Source: Flavobacteriales bacterium
Lineage (GTDB): Bacteria > Bacteroidota > Bacteroidia > Flavobacteriales_D > Sanyastnellaceae
Length of the DNA: 40,515 nucleotides
Assembly: GCA_029242765.1 (NCBI GenBank)
Contig: JAQWTJ010000050.1
Span: 1 to 40,515 of the forward strand
Reading direction: 5' to 3'
In this document: positions 2,456 to 30,532 of the stretch, piece by piece
Layout of the letters: each line of letters starts with the position of its first letter
How positions within the stretch are numbered: the stretch's first letter is position 1
The notes under the pieces: model-generated
Databases searched by the model: none
What the model was told of the DNA's origin: nothing
The model's input: only the letters and a program-made list of their open reading frames with translations
Made by a program: the position numbers and the translations under genes

Positions 2456-4009
2456 TCAACGCCCGCGCATATGAATCAGTGGAACGAGCATCTCCTCCAT
2501 CGAAACGCCGCCATGCTGGAAAGAACCGGTGTACTTCTGCACGAAGGTGTTGAAGTTGTTCGGGTAAACCATGAAATCTCGCGATGTGGCAAACAAATAG
2601 CTCGTGGCGACGTGTTGTTTGGGCAGTCCGAAATCAGAAGGATGTGAAAGCTTGATTACATCCTTGCCGTCCGTATTTATCGTCTTGCCCGCTTTATAAC
2701 GCGGATTGCTCGTGATGTCACGCTCTCCGTTCACTTTCACAGGGTGCTCGACCTGAATCGTGCCATGGTCCGTAGTCAATACCACCTCGAGCCCCTGCGC
2801 AGCAGCCAACTCCAACAGCTGCTTCAAGGGGCTGTGATCAAACCAGCTGGCCGTAATCGACCGGAACGACGCCTCGTCCGCAGCAAGCTCCTTGATGATA
2901 CTGGATTCTGTGCGCGAATGGCTGAGCATGTCGACAAAATTGTAAACCACCGCTGTGAAATCTTGGTTCTTCAAACGATGGAAATTATCCGTCAACTTCT
3001 GCCCCGATTCCTTGTCCGTGATCTTGTGATAAGACCAATCCCCTTCAAAGCGCCAAGTCGCCAATTGCCGGCGTAGAAGCTCCTCCTCATGCGCATTCTT
3101 GCTGCCCTTCTCGTCTTCCCACTTCCATAAATGGGGTGTTTCAGCGGCAATTTTAGCGGGCGTCTGCCCAGCGAACAAGGCATTGCGGGCGTACTGCGTG
3201 GCGGTGGGCAGCAGCGACCACTGCATCTTCTCACTCACGATGCGGTACGAACCTGCAAGCTCGCCAGAAATCGCCTTCCACTGGTCGTAGCGGAAATTGT
3301 CAATCAGTACGAACAGGACCTTTTTTCCATCCTTGAGCAGGGGCCGCACCGCTTGAGGCAAGACATCCAAAGCAAGTGTTGGTCGATTATTCGGCTCTCG
3401 AATCCAGTCCGCGTATTCATCGTCAACGAAGCGACAAAACTGCCGGTTGGCCTCGATGCGTTGGTTTGAAAGGATCTCCAACATCGCCTGATCCCCCGTT
3501 TCCGAAAGCTCGAGATCCCAATGCACAAGCCGAGCGTGAATTTCTTCCCAATCCGCAGCATTCAAACGGTCGCCCATCCGCATGCTGAGCTCGCGAAATT
3601 CGCGCTGATAGTTGGACATGGCCTGGTCCCCCACAAGCTTCCGGCCTTCAAAAATCTTCTTCACCGAACTGAGGATTTGCACGGGGTTCAGCGGCTTGAT
3701 TAGGTAATCAGAAATCTTCCCGCCAATCGCCTCCTCCATGATGTGCTCCTCCTCACTCTTTGTGATCATCACACAAGGCAAATGTGGACGGCGCGCTTTG
3801 ATTTTTTGCAAAGTCTCCAGACCGGTGATGCCCGGCATATTCTCGTCCAAAAACACCAGATCCACAATGTGTTCGTCGAGCAGCTCGACCGCCGAGGCGC
3901 CGTCAGGCACACCGGTCACGTCGTACCCCTTGCCTTCAAGGTACATAATGTGGGGTTTGAGCAGTTCTATTTCGTCGTCGGCCCAAAGGATGTGTGGTCG
4001 TCTACTCAT
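2456..4009 (-). CDS. porX: PorX: response regulator with PglZ phosphodiesterase domain (type IX secretion regulator)
   Basis: PorX is the Bacteroidota response regulator paired with the sensor PorY. It controls type IX secretion and, from work on Porphyromonas, is a zinc-dependent phosphodiesterase acting on oligonucleotides. The 517-residue protein starts with a CheY-like receiver: acidic pair ADDE (residues 10-13), phospho-acceptor Asp55 in VFLDENMPG, conserved Lys105 in LIKPLNP. After a helical linker comes the alkaline-phosphatase-like PglZ domain, with VLIDNFRYDQW (Asp237, Asp242) and, near the end, LTTDHGTIQVEHP, the metal-binding region. No DNA-binding domain is present, as expected. 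No porY-like partner is adjacent; the histidine kinase at 35207 has its own regulator. The start is ATG at 4009, 87 bases from a divergent HD-domain gene. Confidence 0.95.
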   Translation of the reverse strand: MSRRPHILWADDEIELLKPHIMYLEGKGYDVTGVPDGASAVELLDEHIVDLVFLDENMPGITGLETLQKIKARRPHLPCVMITKSEEEHIMEEAIGGKISDYLIKPLNPVQILSSVKKIFEGRKLVGDQAMSNYQREFRELSMRMGDRLNAADWEEIHARLVHWDLELSETGDQAMLEILSNQRIEANRQFCRFVDDEYADWIREPNNRPTLALDVLPQAVRPLLKDGKKVLFVLIDNFRYDQWKAISGELAGSYRIVSEKMQWSLLPTATQYARNALFAGQTPAKIAAETPHLWKWEDEKGSKNAHEEELLRRQLATWRFEGDWSYHKITDKESGQKLTDNFHRLKNQDFTAVVYNFVDMLSHSRTESSIIKELAADEASFRSITASWFDHSPLKQLLELAAAQGLEVVLTTDHGTIQVEHPVKVNGERDITSNPRYKAGKTINTDGKDVIKLSHPSDFGLPKQHVATSYLFATSRDFMVYPNNFNTFVQKYTGSFQHGGVSMEEMLVPLIHMRGR

Positions 4010-9266: not shown

Positions 9267-9674
9267 ATGGCCAGCGTCAACAAAGTGACCCTTCTCGGGC
9301 ATGTCGGGCAAGACCCCAGCATCCGCTATTTGGAAAGTGGCGTAGCCATGTGCAGCCTTCGAATGGCCACTTCTGAAACGATGACGGACAGCAAAACGGG
9401 TGAACGAAAATCACGGACCGAGTGGCACAATGTGACGCTCTGGCGGCAAAGCGCTGAGTTCGCTGACAAGTATGTAAAGACGGGCGCTTTGGTCTACATA
9501 GAAGGACAGCTTCGCACGCGAACTTGGCAGGACAAGCAGGGCATCCAGCACAAATCGACCGAAATCATCAGCGATCATTTGCAGCTGCTCGACCGCAAGT
9601 CAGACGAAGCCGCGAAGCCGAGCACCGGACCCGTCCCGGGCGAAGCCGACGACATCAAAGACCTTCCCTTTTGA
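9267..9674 (+). CDS. ssb: Single-stranded DNA-binding protein
   Basis: Binds single-stranded DNA in replication and repair. The 135-residue protein opens with MASVNKVTLLGHVGQDPSIR, has the OB-fold core with EWHNVTLWRQSAEFADKYVKTG and VYIEGQLRTRTWQDKQG, and ends in a short flexible linker and the acidic tip DDIKDLPF, which recruits partner proteins. It lies ten bases after mutY, and its TGA overlaps the ATG of the gldE part by one base (TGATG), suggesting translational coupling. Confidence 0.97.
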   Translation: MASVNKVTLLGHVGQDPSIRYLESGVAMCSLRMATSETMTDSKTGERKSRTEWHNVTLWRQSAEFADKYVKTGALVYIEGQLRTRTWQDKQGIQHKSTEIISDHLQLLDRKSDEAAKPSTGPVPGEADDIKDLPF

Positions 9675-11560
9675 TGGGCCTAGCACTTTCTGTTGTTTTT
9701 GCGTTTTCAGCCGCGTGGTGGTGGGCCAGCGGGAGCATTGTGGTGCTCCTCGGCATAAGCGCCGCCGTCTCCGGTTCGGAAATCGCGTTTTTCTCACTCA
9801 AACCTCAAGACCGATTGGACTTGAAGGAGAGCGATGACAAGAACGCCTTACTCGCCATCGATCTGCTGACCCAGCCGGATCCGCAGCGTGCACCGAGGCA
9901 ACTTTTGGCCACCATCTTGGTGCTGAACAACGCTGTCAACATTGTCATCATCCTGATTTCCACTGTGGTGATGCGCAGCGCATTCCCACCAGGAATACTG
10001 AGCGCCACATGGGAATGGGTGGTTCACATTTTTTCCGTCACCTTTCTAATTGTGCTCTTCGGCGAAGTGATTCCGAAAATCTACGCCTCGCGCAACAGCT
10101 TGAAACTTGCCACCCGCATGGCGCGGCCCTTGAGTATTGCTCAGCGACTGTTGATTCCTGTGGCCCGGCCCATGGTGTCCTTTACTGCACAAATTGATCG
10201 CCGCCTTTCACGATTTCGTAAGGACGAAGTATCGGTTGCAGATTTGGAGCACGCATTGGAATTGACAGATTCGGGGGAAAGAACCGAGGACGAGAAGCGC
10301 ATTTTAACCGGTATTGTCAGCTTTGGAAAGAAGGATGTCAAACAAATCATGACCCCGCGGGTGGACGTGACGGCCTTCGCTATCGACACGCCTTGGGAGC
10401 AGCTCCTGCCTAAACTTGTCGCCTCCGGACACAGCCGTGTACCTGTGTACAGCAGCAGCTTTGACGAAATCGAAGGGGTGCTGTACATCAAGGATTTAAC
10501 TGGCGTGCGCAAAGCCCCGGACGCGGACTGGAACGCGCTGGTGCGCAAACCCTTTTTCGTGACGGAAAACATGAAGATTGACGACCTCCTTCGTGATTTT
10601 CAAAACCGTAAAGTTCACCTGGCAGTGGTGGTCGATGAGTACGGCGGGACGAGCGGGATCGTCACCTTGGAAGACGTCATTGAGGAGATCGTAGGGGAAA
10701 TTTCTGACGAATTCGACCAAGAACAAGTCCAATACAGCCGGGTCAGCAATAAGGTCTGCATATTCCAAGGCAAGACCATGCTAGTAGACATGTACCGCAT
10801 TCTAAATGTGGACGGCGAGGCGATGGAGGCGGCCAAGGGCGAGAGCGATTCCATCGGGGGCTTCATGGTTGAACAGGCAGGCAAGATGCTCGAGCCTGGC
10901 GATGGGCTCGAGTTTTCCGACTTGAAGTTCACTGTGGAGGCCGCAGATCGTCGCCGAATTTCACAGGTTCGCATTGAAAAGCTGGCGCTGTTCATCGCAC
11001 TCTTGGTTGGGCTGGCGGGATGCCGAGAAGTGCCTATCCCGCGGCCTCAAGGGTTCTTCCGCATCGAGCTGCACGACACCACATTTGCGGCCCAAGAAGT
11101 GGGCTGCGGACTGCGCCTGGACCGGTCGACTTCAGCCGGCTCGATACTGCGGCTGGAAAGCCCCGCTGACTCGTGCTGGTTCGATTTGGTCTACCCCGCT
11201 TATGATGCGCGCATCCACTGCACGTATGCGCAAACTGACGAATTGAACCGCCGGGTGGATGACGCCTTTCGTCTCGCCTATGAACACGAGGTGCGGGCTG
11301 ATGCAATTGGAACGCGTCAATTTTCTCGTCCCGACGGAAGCACAGGCGTCACATTTCATCTTGCGGGCGACGCGGCCAGCTCTTTGCAATTCGTGTTGAC
11401 CGACGGCAAAGACAAATTTTTGCGCGGCGCGCTCTATTTCAACCGGACGGCCAATGGAGATTCAACCCAGCCCGTCACCGACCGCATCGCCTACGACGTG
11501 CAACGGCTGATGGAAAGTGTGCATTGGCCTACATACGAACTTCCAGACGGACCGTTATGA
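9674..11560 (+). CDS. gldE-gldD: GldE-GldD in-frame fusion: CNNM/CBS/CorC membrane protein joined to the gliding lipoprotein GldD
   Basis: One uninterrupted frame of 628 residues encodes two gliding proteins normally made from adjacent genes. Residues 1-433 are GldE: a CNNM/DUF21 membrane domain (SGSEIAFFSLK near residue 36), two CBS domains and a CorC/HlyC domain (VVDEYGGTSGIVTLEDVIEE near residue 318). Residues 434-628 are GldD: IEKLALFIALLVGLAGC (434-450) has the form of a lipoprotein signal with lipobox LAGC, then the GldD-like start PRPQGFFRIEL. GldD is a gliding and type IX secretion lipoprotein in Flavobacterium. No stop and no ATG, GTG or TTG lies in frame at the junction, only ATT at 10973 and CTG at 10982. 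Possible explanations are a true fusion, a precursor cut by lipoprotein signal peptidase, a rare ATT start, or a paired sequencing error. The ATG at 9674 fits the GldE N-terminus; the stop overlaps coaX (ATGA). Confidence 0.88.
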   Translation: MGLALSVVFAFSAAWWWASGSIVVLLGISAAVSGSEIAFFSLKPQDRLDLKESDDKNALLAIDLLTQPDPQRAPRQLLATILVLNNAVNIVIILISTVVMRSAFPPGILSATWEWVVHIFSVTFLIVLFGEVIPKIYASRNSLKLATRMARPLSIAQRLLIPVARPMVSFTAQIDRRLSRFRKDEVSVADLEHALELTDSGERTEDEKRILTGIVSFGKKDVKQIMTPRVDVTAFAIDTPWEQLLPKLVASGHSRVPVYSSSFDEIEGVLYIKDLTGVRKAPDADWNALVRKPFFVTENMKIDDLLRDFQNRKVHLAVVVDEYGGTSGIVTLEDVIEEIVGEISDEFDQEQVQYSRVSNKVCIFQGKTMLVDMYRILNVDGEAMEAAKGESDSIGGFMVEQAGKMLEPGDGLEFSDLKFTVEAADRRRISQVRIEKLALFIALLVGLAGCREVPIPRPQGFFRIELHDTTFAAQEVGCGLRLDRSTSAGSILRLESPADSCWFDLVYPAYDARIHCTYAQTDELNRRVDDAFRLAYEHEVRADAIGTRQFSRPDGSTGVTFHLAGDAASSLQFVLTDGKDKFLRGALYFNRTANGDSTQPVTDRIAYDVQRLMESVHWPTYELPDGPL

Positions 11561-12323: not shown

Positions 12324-13727
12324 GTGAAATCACTCATTTTCACTACCTTAGCACTGATTTTGACCTGCAGTTTTGCTGCCGGACAAACCTCATTGTCCCC
12401 CTATTCACGTTTTGCATTCGGTGATTTTATCGCGCCGGGGGGTGCGGCTCAGTTGGGCATTGGCGGATTGGGCGCCGCCTGGATCGACCGTTCTTCCATC
12501 AATGCTGCCAATCCAGCAGCGGCCTCCTTCCTGCATCGCACCTCCTTCCAAAGCGGTTTAGGTGTGCACAGTTTGAAACTCGCCGAAGGCTCCTCAACGG
12601 GCAGTGGCCAATTCGGAGGTTTGGACGCTGTCAGCCTGGTACTCAAGAAACGTGGCGGCCGGGGGGCTTTTCAATTCGGAGTTCGCCCGCTTTCAGGCAG
12701 CGGTTACGCAATCACCGACAAGTTTGAGCAGGACGGCATCGGCGAGGTGGAAATCAGCTACACCGGTAAAGGCGGCCTCAGCGCCGCTCACGCCGGCTGG
12801 AGCTACCGTTGGGATGGGCAACGCTGGAGGTCACTTGGCACTGCATCCGGGACAGCCATCGATAGCGTCCGCGTGGTTGCACACGGCACAGCTCTGGGCG
12901 TACACGTGCAGCAGATCTTCGGTGACTTGGCGCAAACCCGATTTGCCGACATCATTGACCCCGGCTATCTCGACACCCAAGTGAAGCGTTCGGCATTGCA
13001 CCGTGGCATTGGGCTCAAGCTCGGATTTATGCACGAGCGCCTGATTAGCGCGACGTACGACCAAGATCGAAAACTTCGGTCCAGCACCCTTTTACGTATA
13101 GGCGCCACCGCTTCCCCCAGCTTTGGCCTAACGGTCGAAGAATCCATCGAACGGACCACCGCCCAAAACCTCAGTGGCGTGATCACCCAAATCGACTCAG
13201 TCGAAGTAACCTCCTCAGTGAGCACTGCGGACTTTCCACTCACCTGGACGGTTGGCTTCATTCTTGAGCGGAGCACGGCAAGCGGCCGGCGCCTAGAGCT
13301 CGGTCTCGAACTTGGGCTCGCCGATTGGACCGCGAACAACACCAGCAATCCAGATTTACTTGACCCCGGCGTGCATTTTGCTGAGGCCTCCCACCGGGCC
13401 ATCGGTTTTTCCTACACCCCACGGAACGTAGAAGACAGCAGAAGCCTGCTAGAACGCTCCACCTACCGCGCGGGCTACCGACAGTCTTCGGGCTACCTCA
13501 CATTCGATCAACACCGGGCCCTGCGAAAAGTCCTTTCGCTTGGGCTCACGGCCCCCATGCTTGGCTCACGGTCAGGTTCTCAGTTTCACTTTGGCATCGA
13601 TTTTGGAGAACGACTCATAGAAGGCGACTCCGAAGCGCTCCGCGAAAGCATAACCACTCTACGATTCGGCGTCTCCCTCTCGCCCTTCTTCAAGAATATT
13701 TGGCTGGTTCCCCGCCGATACGACTGA
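12324..13727 (+). CDS. Predicted outer-membrane beta-barrel protein of unknown function
   Basis: A 467-residue exported protein. Residues 1-20 are a signal peptide ending CSFAAG, with Gln21 as predicted mature residue. The mature part begins with the Bacteroidota motif SLSPYSRFAFGDF, followed by a Gly- and Ala-rich opening resembling FadL- or PorV-like barrels, and many alternating amphipathic strands to the end (for example LRFGVSLSPFF). No enzyme motif is visible. Homologues with the SPYSR..G.GD start are often found next to coaX and lptC in Flavobacteriia, so a role in envelope biogenesis is possible, inferred from position only. It starts at GTG 12324, two bases after coaX. Confidence 0.75.
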   Translation: MKSLIFTTLALILTCSFAAGQTSLSPYSRFAFGDFIAPGGAAQLGIGGLGAAWIDRSSINAANPAAASFLHRTSFQSGLGVHSLKLAEGSSTGSGQFGGLDAVSLVLKKRGGRGAFQFGVRPLSGSGYAITDKFEQDGIGEVEISYTGKGGLSAAHAGWSYRWDGQRWRSLGTASGTAIDSVRVVAHGTALGVHVQQIFGDLAQTRFADIIDPGYLDTQVKRSALHRGIGLKLGFMHERLISATYDQDRKLRSSTLLRIGATASPSFGLTVEESIERTTAQNLSGVITQIDSVEVTSSVSTADFPLTWTVGFILERSTASGRRLELGLELGLADWTANNTSNPDLLDPGVHFAEASHRAIGFSYTPRNVEDSRSLLERSTYRAGYRQSSGYLTFDQHRALRKVLSLGLTAPMLGSRSGSQFHFGIDFGERLIEGDSEALRESITTLRFGVSLSPFFKNIWLVPRRYD

Positions 13728-15786: not shown

Positions 15787-15965
15787 ATATTCACCGCATC
15801 GTTGAGATCTTCTTTCTGGTCATTGCCATCGCCTCGTCGATTGCGGCCGTCCGTGAGATTGCGTTGTACGGCTGGGATGCTGGGCGCAATATGCTGTTCG
15901 TGCCGGCCATGGCCTTCGGTTGGTTTTACATGCGACGCACCGTGAGAAAGCGCCTGGCGAAATGA
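15783..15965 (+). CDS. Small two-helix membrane protein
   Basis: A 60-residue protein with two hydrophobic helices (about residues 8-24 and 36-50) and a very basic tail with MRRTVRKRLAK. Start and stop overlap the neighbouring genes by four bases each (ATGA with lptC and ATGA with the CNNM gene), which argues strongly that it is translated. Small unnamed proteins of this kind stand at the same place between lptC and a CNNM gene in related genomes. No function can be assigned; co-expression with lptC suggests an envelope role. Confidence 0.8.
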   Translation: MNIHRIVEIFFLVIAIASSIAAVREIALYGWDAGRNMLFVPAMAFGWFYMRRTVRKRLAK

Positions 15966-17260
15966 GTGCTATTACGATGAGCACCATGGACTTGACGATA
16001 CTCGTACTGTCTTTGCTGGCTTCGGCGTTTTTTTCCGGCATGGAGATGGCTTTTGTCTCGGCCAATCGACTTCAAGCAGAACTCGATATGAACCAAGGGG
16101 GCAAAGCCTCAAGGATTGTTGTGCATCTGCTCGGCCGCCCCGAGCGCTTCATCACCACCATGCTGGTGGGCAATAATTTGGCGTTGGTGCTATTTGGACT
16201 GCAAAGCGCTAAGCTTATCAGCATCGCTCTGTTTGGTGCCCCGGCTTGGGAGGACGTGGACCACCCGATGGCCGCTCTAGCCACACAGACCATCATGGCG
16301 ACAATCACCGTCTTGTTGTTGGCTGAATTTTTGCCGAAGTCGATCTTTCAAATCCGGCCAAACAAATGGCTGCGCTGGGTTTCTATCCCTTTACTTCTGG
16401 TCCATTACATCTTGCTTTTGCCAGCAATCGTGGTGCTGGGGATCTCGCGACTGCTGATGGGGCGCCGCAAGCAGGTCGATGCCGATGAGAGTGCCGACCA
16501 ATTGGGTACAGTCGATCTCGATTATTATTTGCGGGCCTTGAATGAGCGGCCGTCGAGCGAGTCCGAATTGGACTTGAACAACGAGATAGAAATTCTACAG
16601 AATGCCCTCGAACTGCCCGATGTAAAAGCGCGTGATTGCTTGGTGCCCAGGAATGAAATCGTGGCCGTATCAATTGAGGAAGAGATTGCAGAGTTGGAAG
16701 CACTATTTGAAGCCACTGGGCTGAGTAAAATCGTTGTGTACCTGGAAGATGTCGACCACATCATCGGCTACGTGCACACGAAAGATCTGTTCCAAAACCC
16801 CAGCAATATTCGGAGCATTCTACACCCCACGTTCATCATCCCCGAACCGATGGGGGCCGACGAGATCATGAAGGAGTTCATTCGGCGTAGAAGGCATTTG
16901 GCCGTGGTGGTCGACGAATTTGGAGGAACTTCAGGAATCTTGACAATGGAGGACATTGTGGAAGAGTTGATTGGAGAGATTGAAGATGAGCACGATGCGG
17001 ATGCATTAACCGAACGTGAATTGAGCCCCGGGCATTTCTTGCTCAACGCCCGACTCGAAATTGACGCATTGAATAAGCGCCACGGTTTTGGACTTCCAAA
17101 GGAAGAAGATTACGAAACCTTAGGGGGATTAATCATTCACCACGCCGAGCACATTCCGGAAGTGGGGCACGTGCTGCAGCTGGGAAATATCACGCTAATC
17201 GTCACCGCGGTGCTCGGCCACCGCATTGATGCAATTGAGCTGCACAAAAGCGACGGCTGA
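15962..17260 (+). CDS. CNNM/CBS/CorC-type membrane protein (hemolysin C-like, second copy)
   Basis: A 432-residue relative of GldE in the same gene run. An N-terminal CNNM/DUF21 domain with several membrane helices carries SGMEMAFVSANRL near residue 25; two CBS domains follow, then VVDEFGGTSGILTMEDIVEELIG and a CorC/HlyC domain at the C-terminus. Family members are linked to magnesium or cobalt efflux, and several serve as cation-responsive regulators, so the substrate is uncertain. I chose ATG 15962, overlapping the upstream stop as ATGA; further ATGs lie at 15977 and 15986. It lacks a GldD-like extension, which makes it a useful contrast to the fused copy at 9674. Confidence 0.88.
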   Translation: MSAITMSTMDLTILVLSLLASAFFSGMEMAFVSANRLQAELDMNQGGKASRIVVHLLGRPERFITTMLVGNNLALVLFGLQSAKLISIALFGAPAWEDVDHPMAALATQTIMATITVLLLAEFLPKSIFQIRPNKWLRWVSIPLLLVHYILLLPAIVVLGISRLLMGRRKQVDADESADQLGTVDLDYYLRALNERPSSESELDLNNEIEILQNALELPDVKARDCLVPRNEIVAVSIEEEIAELEALFEATGLSKIVVYLEDVDHIIGYVHTKDLFQNPSNIRSILHPTFIIPEPMGADEIMKEFIRRRRHLAVVVDEFGGTSGILTMEDIVEELIGEIEDEHDADALTERELSPGHFLLNARLEIDALNKRHGFGLPKEEDYETLGGLIIHHAEHIPEVGHVLQLGNITLIVTAVLGHRIDAIELHKSDG

Positions 17261-19381: not shown

Positions 19382-20656
19382 CTAGGTTTTGCTCGGCTGA
19401 AAGCTGAGTAAGCAGGCGTCACCATAGCTTAAGAATCGATACCCCGCCTTAACGGCATGGGCGTAGGCCTTGCGCCACATGGGGCCAACAGCTGCCTCTA
19501 TAATGCACAGCAGGGTGCTGCCTGGCATATGAAAGTTGGTGACAAGTCGGTGCGTTGATCGGATGCGGTAGCCCGGCACAATCATAATTTCAGTGCTGAA
19601 TTTCACGGCGTCTTGACCCGTCGACTCCAGAACGTCCAACAAAGACTCAACGGCTTGTTCATACGTGCCGTATTCAGGCAAATCCGAACGATCAATCCAC
19701 TGCGGAATGTGTGCTGATGCGCCTGAAGCAAGGGCCTCTTTTACTGCGGCGGCTTGGGCGACTAACGCGTGTGGCACTGCATCTTGCGCTGAATCATCCG
19801 TTGCAATGCGTAGCAAACACGCAAGCCAATACACGCTTTCCAAGGTTCGCAGCGTGGTGGTGCCCACCACCGTCCGATCGGGTTGCTCGGCAAGAACTTG
19901 CAGGGCCCCGCGTGAAATTTCGCAACGCTCTGCGTGCATGACGTGTTCAGCTAGCGGACCGCTGACCGGCTTGAAGGTGCCGACCCCCACATGAAGCGTG
20001 ACATGAGCTGAAGCGACATCCCGGGCCTTGAGCGCGGCGAGGACTTCCTGCGAAAAATGGAGACCGGCTGTGGGAGCAGCCACGCTCCCAAGTTTCTGAG
20101 CAAACAAGGTCTGGTAGCGATCGGCATCACGTTCGTCCGAGTCGCGGTTCATATAGGGTGGAAGAGGGATGGAGCCGGCCCGGTCCAGTACTTCGGAGAA
20201 GCTTGCGCCACCTTTCCACGAGAAATGAACACAGAAGCGGCCTTCGAATTCGGGCAATCGTCTTGCGAGGATGTTCATTTCGCAAAGCGAAGGTTCGTCG
20301 GATCCGATGGACACATCGCCATGCTTCCATCGCTTGGCGCCACCAATCAACACGACCCATGTGCAACTCTGGGTGGCGGCCATGGCCTGCTCTACGCTAA
20401 GCCCGTTGGGGTCGAGAAGTAGAAATTCTACCGCTCCGCCGGTGGGCTTACACCCGCGAAGGCGGGCCCGAAGAACGCGGGTCTGGTTGGTCCACAGGAC
20501 GCTCCCCTGTGGCAAGAGCTTGGGCAAGTCAACGAAGTTGTAATCGGACAGGCCGTTGGGCGTAGACTGACCGAAGGCGAGCAGTCGGCTGCCGTCACGA
20601 CGCACTGCGGGGCGCGCTGCGATGCAGCTCTCTGGCAATTCGTAATCAAGATTCAA
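19382..20656 (-). CDS. queA: S-adenosylmethionine:tRNA ribosyltransferase-isomerase QueA (Bacteroidota long type)
   Basis: Transfers and isomerises the ribosyl group of S-adenosylmethionine onto 7-aminomethyl-7-deazaguanine in tRNA, giving epoxyqueuosine. The 424-residue protein has family segments NLDYELPESCIAARPA near the N-terminus, APTAGLHFSQEVL, HVTLHVGVGTFKPV, VGTTTLRTLE and NFHMPGSTLLCIIEA. It is longer than the E. coli enzyme, as usual in Bacteroidota. The start is a TTG at 20656; no ATG lies in frame nearby, and the N-terminus aligned there resembles the family. A promoter shared with the divergent gene lies immediately upstream. Confidence 0.9.
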   Translation of the reverse strand: MNLDYELPESCIAARPAVRRDGSRLLAFGQSTPNGLSDYNFVDLPKLLPQGSVLWTNQTRVLRARLRGCKPTGGAVEFLLLDPNGLSVEQAMAATQSCTWVVLIGGAKRWKHGDVSIGSDEPSLCEMNILARRLPEFEGRFCVHFSWKGGASFSEVLDRAGSIPLPPYMNRDSDERDADRYQTLFAQKLGSVAAPTAGLHFSQEVLAALKARDVASAHVTLHVGVGTFKPVSGPLAEHVMHAERCEISRGALQVLAEQPDRTVVGTTTLRTLESVYWLACLLRIATDDSAQDAVPHALVAQAAAVKEALASGASAHIPQWIDRSDLPEYGTYEQAVESLLDVLESTGQDAVKFSTEIMIVPGYRIRSTHRLVTNFHMPGSTLLCIIEAAVGPMWRKAYAHAVKAGYRFLSYGDACLLSFQPSKT

Positions 20657-29396: not shown

Positions 29397-30449
29397 TTAT
29401 TTGCCAGCAAATTGACGAAGGGCAGACTCGTCTAAAATCCGCACAGCACGGCCGTCAAGTTCGACCCAACCGTCGCTCTTGAAGTCCGACAAAGCACGGA
29501 TCAAGCTTTCTTTTGCCGTGCCCACAACACCGGCCAAATCCTCACGTGACATCTCGGGCGAACCCGGATTATCAGCAAAGCGTTCGTGAAGCTCTAACAA
29601 GGCGATAGCTGTGCGCTCGCGAACCGAGGCGTAAGCTAGGGCTAGCAAGCGCTCCTGGTTCTGCTCCACCTCACCTGCGAGCATCCGTACAAAACGCATG
29701 GAAACATCGCGGTTGCGGTGCATCAAATCAAGGAAAACCTGACGAGGGATGGCGTGAATTTCAGCTTCTTCCAACACCTCAGCCGTCGCTCCATATTCGT
29801 CTCCACCGAGCACCTCGTTGTAACCGAAGAATTCACCCGATTTAACCAACTCCACAATGAGCTCTTTGCCGTACGAGTCAGTCCGCAGCACTTTTACGAT
29901 GCCAGAAATAACGTAATACACGTAAAGAGCCTGGTCACCTTCCGTGTAAACCATGCGTTTGGCATCGTACGATTTCGGTTTGTCACCAAGTTCAATTCCA
30001 GGGATACCGGTCTGTTGCGAAGCGTCTTCGATGAATTCCTTCAAACGCGTGGGCGCTTGGCCGTACTCGCGCTGGGTGATCGCACTCTTGCGCAAACGCA
30101 CCTTAATCGTGGCCAGCAAATCTTGCTCAGAAAAAGGCTTGACCAAGTAATCATCTGCACCTGAACTCATACCGCGCCGCACTTCGCCAGCCCCATCACG
30201 CGAAGTCAGAAAAATAAATGGGATGCGCGCAGTTCTGGGGTTCGAACTCAAATAATGCAGCACGCCGTAACCATCGAGTTCGGGCATTTCAACATCGCAC
30301 ACGATCATATCGGGCAATTCTGAATTGGCCATGTCGACACCTTCCTTGCCATCACAGGCCTGAACAACTTGATAGCCAGACAGTTCCAAAATGTCAGCAG
30401 TCGTTCTTCGGAGAAATGCATTGTCCTCAATGAGTAAAATCTTCTTCAC
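29397..30449 (-). CDS. Receiver-CRP/FNR fusion transcription regulator
   Basis: A 350-residue regulator joining three domains. Residues 1-120 are a CheY-like receiver: acidic pair in LLIEDN, phospho-acceptor Asp52 in IVCDVEMPELDGYG, Lys in DDYLVKPFSEQD. Next is a cyclic-nucleotide-binding fold (YYVISGIVKVLRTDSYGKEL and GEFFGYNEVLGG), and last a CRP-type helix-turn-helix (MSREDLAGVVGTAKESLIRAL). It should act as a phosphorylation-controlled CRP-like DNA-binding protein; the effector of the sensor fold is unknown. The GTG start at 30449 places VKKILLIEDN at the N-terminus; an upstream ATG at 30518 would add 23 residues without family likeness. No histidine kinase is adjacent. Confidence 0.9.
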   Translation of the reverse strand: MKKILLIEDNAFLRRTTADILELSGYQVVQACDGKEGVDMANSELPDMIVCDVEMPELDGYGVLHYLSSNPRTARIPFIFLTSRDGAGEVRRGMSSGADDYLVKPFSEQDLLATIKVRLRKSAITQREYGQAPTRLKEFIEDASQQTGIPGIELGDKPKSYDAKRMVYTEGDQALYVYYVISGIVKVLRTDSYGKELIVELVKSGEFFGYNEVLGGDEYGATAEVLEEAEIHAIPRQVFLDLMHRNRDVSMRFVRMLAGEVEQNQERLLALAYASVRERTAIALLELHERFADNPGSPEMSREDLAGVVGTAKESLIRALSDFKSDGWVELDGRAVRILDESALRQFAGK

Positions 30450-30468
30450 GTCGCAGATTTGGTTTCCC

Positions 30469-30476
30469 CAAACATA
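30469..30476 (-). promoter_or_regulatory. Candidate -7 element for the receiver-CRP regulator (TATGTTTG)
   Basis: TATGTTTG on the minus strand matches TAnnTTTG in full and ends 19 bases before the GTG at 30449. A TTC, not TTG, lies 22 bases upstream. A promoter for the divergent pheT must lie in the same 83-base gap but is not clear. Confidence 0.5.
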
Positions 30477-30532
30477 CGCGAGCGCGGGCAGTCGTGGTGA
30501 ATTATCTTGCCGCCGCATACACCCCCTCCCTT

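Follow-up and report, generated by a model that had tools for sequence, protein, structure and literature searches.

A recurrent fusion of gldE and gldD in Bacteroidia with a putative internal lipoprotein signal

In this study, we asked whether gldE and gldD, two neighbouring genes in gliding flavobacteria, are truly one gene in a draft Flavobacteriales genome (2.22 Mb, 110 contigs, 97% complete), and how a lipoprotein could be made from a gene that carries its signal in the middle. A requirement in gliding and in type IX secretion characterizes the GldD family. The window analysed here, 40,515 nt in length, is the whole of one contig of that genome (C3). The fusion is confirmed as real: the frame is open over two complete families and the arrangement occurs in 41 genomes, which cannot be put down to chance. 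Searched with the whole protein, the same genome yields this locus and a distant CNNM paralogue only, and the GldD model has one match in it.

The fused frame and its internal signal

The forward strand of the window contains a single open frame that runs from an ATG at 9674 to a last codon at 11555-11557, followed by TGA at 11558-11560, and whose translation is 628 residues long. That one frame extends from the start of GldE to the end of GldD had been proposed in the initial annotation, and both NCBI curated family models bear this out: TIGR03520 (GldE) scores 477 bits against a cut-off of 376 over residues 23-435, and TIGR03512 (GldD lipoprotein) scores 147 bits against a cut-off of 120 over residues 443-618. 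In the Pfam collection the order along the protein is CNNM (PF01595), CBS (PF00571), CorC (PF03471) and GldD_lipo (PF25593, 149 bits against a cut-off of 27). The frame can be extended upstream, to 678 residues from a TTG and to 697 codons from stop to stop; ATG 9674 is the likely start because it overlaps the stop codon of ssb (TGATG), which lies at 9267-9674 on the same strand and matches PF00436.

The GldE part, with its CNNM transmembrane, CBS and CorC domains, occupies residues 1-436 (9674-10981), the last GldE strand being modelled at residues 429-436. The family match ends at residue 435 and the signal begins at 437, in agreement with the earlier claim that a complete GldE stands ahead of an end-to-end join. 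At the join, VRIEK436 is followed directly by the putative internal lipoprotein signal LALFIALLVGLAG (residues 437-449; 10982-11020) and by Cys450 (11021-11023), the expected lipidation site, just before which the protein would be cut; GLAG-C450 thus presents a hydrophobic stretch, a small residue and a Cys. The mature GldD part comprises residues 450-628 (11021-11557). A lipoprotein signal with a lipobox had been recognized at the outset and is retained here; its extent is revised, as the hydrophobic stretch is 13 residues long and the charged front is the tail of GldE itself. These 13 residues are free of D, E, K, R, N, Q and H, and the median for such a stretch is 14 among 156 separate GldD proteins. 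Because the signal is internal (residues 437-449) and not at the N terminus, the fused protein would work like a lipoprotein processed by LspA without being an ordinary member of that class.

Recurrence in Bacteroidia and origin of the join

A search for relatives with GldE proteins of more than 600 residues, suggested in the initial annotation, found them at the level of genus, order and class. Both genes are present in 16 of the 17 genomes of the genus that were searched (G009 gave no gldE-gldD match), fused in 14 of the 16 and separate in two, G003 and G007. In the same order, G055, which belongs to another family, is also fused; a GldD survey of the order gave a match in 284 of 299 genomes, and among the matches listed, none of them from the genus, that of G055 was the sole frame of fused length. 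Across the class, 394 further Bacteroidia genomes were sampled (395 with the present one), and no fewer than 26 of them carry the fusion, each counted only after a check on the DNA for one open frame with both domains. They include seven genomes of family f40 (16 searched, 15 with both genes), six of f39 (eight searched, seven with both genes), one of three in f10 and all six examined in f72, where a seventh genome, G584, was left out. Five of 80 named loci listed are fused, all five being contigs of genomes in this genus. In a phylum-wide search of 296 genomes, our genome was the sole fusion among the matches listed; those listed as same phylum end at about profile position 460 at most, covering GldE only, and five long matches (L277-L281) together with L282 carry a stop right after GldE, as checked on the DNA of L277-L281.

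Some long class matches over both halves were rejected as fusions. A stop lies, for example, inside those of G448, G627, G563, G439, G603, G655, G421, G323, G568, G652 and G381, and the DNA of these genomes has separate genes in one frame. At L005 (from G007) and L108, the genes are separate and in different frames inside an otherwise fused clade, which may reflect a re-split or a base error.

The nearest relative of the window is G003 (75% identity over 588 tree columns), a sister with support of 100/100 in which the genes are separate and the gldE stop overlaps the first in-frame gldD ATG (ATGA). An alignment of the two DNAs contains a single 35-nt gap, located at the join and covering both the GldE stop and the GldD ATG codons. 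A length of 35 nt is not divisible by three, as is required for the two frames to fall into register. We infer that the change was a loss in the lineage of the window and not a gain in G003, and that gldE and gldD were most likely joined here through the net loss of some 35 nt. The same alignment disposes of an ATT at 10973-10975 that had been put forward as an alternative gldD start: it encodes Ile434 of GldE and is aligned with a GldE valine codon, GTA, in G003, which rules out a decayed gldD start at this position.

The fusion in the window is probably an event of its own within the genus, since the GldE core and the Cys are 13 residues apart in the window versus 30-37 in the other 13 fused genomes, and these belong to the other clade of the genus, together with one separate genome, G007. 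The genus tree has three changes between fused and separate, at least two of them forced by starred branches; one fusion with later splits may instead account for the pattern. Beyond the genus, a quick tree built from the GldE and GldD sequences of 131 genomes (40 fused, 91 separate) needs 13 such changes, all forced by starred branches, compared with 34.4 when labels are shuffled. This tree has SH-aLRT support only and contains long branches, its genomes were selected so that fused families would be represented, and gains are indistinguishable from splits on it (L083 was left out, its protein being identical to that of L082, and L269 has no GldD on its stretch). Our reading of this tree is that about ten independent joinings may have occurred. 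The starting point for a fusion appears to be easily reached: the open frames of many separate gldE and gldD genes overlap or abut, and in five f65 genomes (L277-L281) the two genes share a frame, GldE being separated from the gldD ATG by one stop codon plus zero to two further codons.

Fate of the fused product

The fused product is probably a two-protein precursor from whose internal lipoprotein signal GldD is freed by LspA. The net deletion of about 35 nt, in removing the stop codon of GldE and the start codons of GldD, would yield one 628-residue protein. The membrane part of GldE would insert, its CBS and CorC domains remaining in the cytoplasm, and the internal signal would cross outward, so that GldD emerges in the periplasm. 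Lgt would lipidate Cys450 and LspA would cut before it, producing a normal lipidated GldD and leaving GldE with a short hydrophobic tail. A self-resolving precursor of this kind had been suggested from the window, and comparison with other fused proteins favours it.

In each of the 40 distinct fused proteins a hydrophobic stretch precedes a Cys that has A, G or S at -1, and 35 of the 40 (five miss) fit a PS51257-like pattern. Such a Cys is present in 156 of 161 distinct separate GldD proteins, counted after removal of a second L174 fragment and of one duplicate; 132 of the 161 fit the pattern and 29 miss it, the Cys-less ones being counted among the latter. By parsimony over seven fused clades of at least two rows (33 rows), three of the seven being from one genus, the Cys column has 0 changes, position -1 has seven changes, restricted to G, S and A, and the columns from -12 to -2 have 8-16 changes each (mean 12.9). 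That the Cys has not changed while neighbouring columns have done so about 13 times each indicates that selection has very probably preserved the cutting site since the fusion, although the contrast is somewhat flattered because Cys changes slowly in general. This conservation argues that the lipobox is still in use, and says nothing on the completeness of cutting. The hydrophobic part of the signal itself appears only weakly constrained: in seven pairs, two of which share a row, the uncorrected ratio of replacement to silent changes is 0.39-0.76 for the signal and 0.40-0.91 for the linker (one undefined), as against 0.04-0.14 for GldE and 0.09-0.21 for GldD.

The topology that the precursor would need is suggested by the GldE half. 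In the CNNM/CorC family the CBS-pair and CorC domains are cytoplasmic, so a signal following the CorC domain would run outward. In 36 of the 40 fused proteins a K or R lies among the 12 residues that precede the uncharged run; the other four have none there. In passages of a report on archaeal CorB, each chain has three membrane helices followed by the CBS-pair and CorC domains (PMC8242095). An LspA gene is present in our genome (PF01252, C80:65507-66058 of G000, E 1.4e-29); LspA matches occur in 16 of the 17 genomes of the genus and GldL matches in 14 of the 17, our own included in both. The window itself contains PorX, a type IX secretion response regulator, at 2456-4009 (NF052313, 720 bits). 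Several points count against the precursor. The window has no linker, the signal starting directly at the CorC domain, so that insertion might be poor, and two of the 16 genomes of the genus, the nearest sister among them, keep the genes separate. The five signals that miss the pattern, the four fronts lacking K or R and the weak constraint on the hydrophobic part weigh in the same direction. In a model of the full-length protein (pTM 0.45) each half is mostly of high confidence, the last GldE strand ending at residue 436 and the first GldD strand starting at 471; residues 442-463 have pLDDT <50, the alignment carried little information at the join and the relative placing of the halves is not fixed.

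Another possibility is that the internal stretch serves as an extra membrane helix, and that GldD works permanently joined to GldE at the inner membrane. In the other 39 fused proteins the GldE core and the Cys are 22-37 residues apart, which would permit such a tether. Anchored GldD without a lipid may also be viable: of the five separate GldD proteins lacking the Cys, four (L025, L031, L117 and L126) retain a hydrophobic stretch at the N terminus, suggesting that GldD can function when anchored at the inner membrane, and in the fifth, L096, the frame starts too late. Yet for a site fallen into disuse, a Cys without change and a -1 position confined to G, S and A inside fused clades would be unexpected, and the 13 residues of the window are short for a membrane-spanning helix. 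We therefore regard the permanent tether as unlikely.

It is less likely still, indeed quite improbable, that initiation at an internal non-ATG codon also makes a separate GldD, the fused frame being partly incidental. Many fused genes have a TTG or GTG near the signal, 11 of the 40 have at least one ATG in the stretch that follows the GldE core and stops eight residues short of the Cys, and ATT, CTG and TTG are present in the window. Against this, the same stretch is without ATG in 29 of the 40 and without ATG, GTG or TTG in six of the 40, the window included; the nearest in-frame ATG upstream of Cys450 in the window, at 10886, is 45 codons before it and within the CorC match. Many of the candidate codons are only 9-17 codons away from the Cys on its upstream side, within or beside the hydrophobic core, and would give a short signal; by homology, the ATT at 10973 belongs to GldE. 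Finally, an assembly or base-calling artefact, which a single assembly in 110 contigs with a separate nearest sister (G003) might have invited, is rejected as very unlikely, since the difference from G003 is a 35-nt gap and not one base, making a base-call error unlikely, and the same architecture recurs in 40 other genomes, five of which also appear in public records.

Related systems, possible meaning and neighbouring genes

Compared with the separate gldE-gldD pair of gliding flavobacteria (TIGR03520 and TIGR03512), described for example in Flavobacterium johnsoniae, the fused genes belong to the same families and stand in the same order; they differ in forming one frame, with neither stop nor ATG at the join. 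This is a recurrent fusion of a known gene pair and not a new kind of system. The GldE part resembles the CNNM/CorC family, sharing its CNNM, CBS and CorC domains and matching solved chains, whereas none of the 39 matched sequences of solved structures covers the GldD part. Another parallel is FbcH, the cytochrome b/c1 precursor of Bradyrhizobium japonicum, a single product that contains a membrane protein followed by an exported one and is split at an internal signal sequence, a signal peptidase acting on the cytochrome c signal. Like FbcH, the gldE-gldD product unites two known proteins in a single frame that also encodes an internal signal, at which cleavage would be expected here; unlike FbcH, its site is a lipobox, for which Lgt and LspA would be expected to be necessary, and the fusion appears to have arisen several times.

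The initial annotation knew of no described fusion of these genes. This holds for the literature searched, which excludes most subscription papers and gave no report of a gldE-gldD fusion, although the fusion itself is present in many genomes. Papers that contain GldE, GldD and the word "fused" concern other fusions in the passages seen, and no mention of an "internal lipobox" was found in the same literature.

If the fused protein is indeed such a precursor, this points to LspA splitting a two-protein product, an unusual role, in an arrangement that has arisen repeatedly. The recurrence of this fusion is also a hint of joint action by GldE and GldD, with a bearing on their roles in gliding and type IX secretion. 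As a tentative extension, perhaps the lipoprotein pathway acts as a precursor-splitter throughout Bacteroidia, gldE and gldD having fused some ten times because GldD is released by LspA in any case, and the fusion having been favoured because the two proteins act as a 1:1 inner-membrane pair; if true, GldE would be a working partner of GldD. For annotators, over-long GldE proteins can be real.

The mature GldD part, modelled alone (11021-11557; mean pLDDT 90.1), is structurally similar to Mog1p (1eq6; Z 11.1, rmsd 3.8, 148 aligned) and PsbP (2vu4; Z 9.9, rmsd 3.5, 128 aligned) by VIA-align. A Foldseek search with this model gave no match at E 0.001 or better, so the assignment of a Mog1p/PsbP-like fold is tentative and gives no function.

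Several other genes in the window deserve mention. A second CNNM protein at 15920-17260 (search match 16004-17248) scores 188 bits to GldE, under the cut-off of 376. The product of 12324-13727 has no Pfam match and is BamG-like at 158 bits, under a cut-off of 250. QueA, at 19382-20656, has 424 residues against a model of 345 positions and matches it in two stretches, perhaps owing to an insertion or extension. Lastly, the protein encoded at 29397-30518 combines a response regulator receiver, a cNMP-binding domain and a Crp helix-turn-helix.
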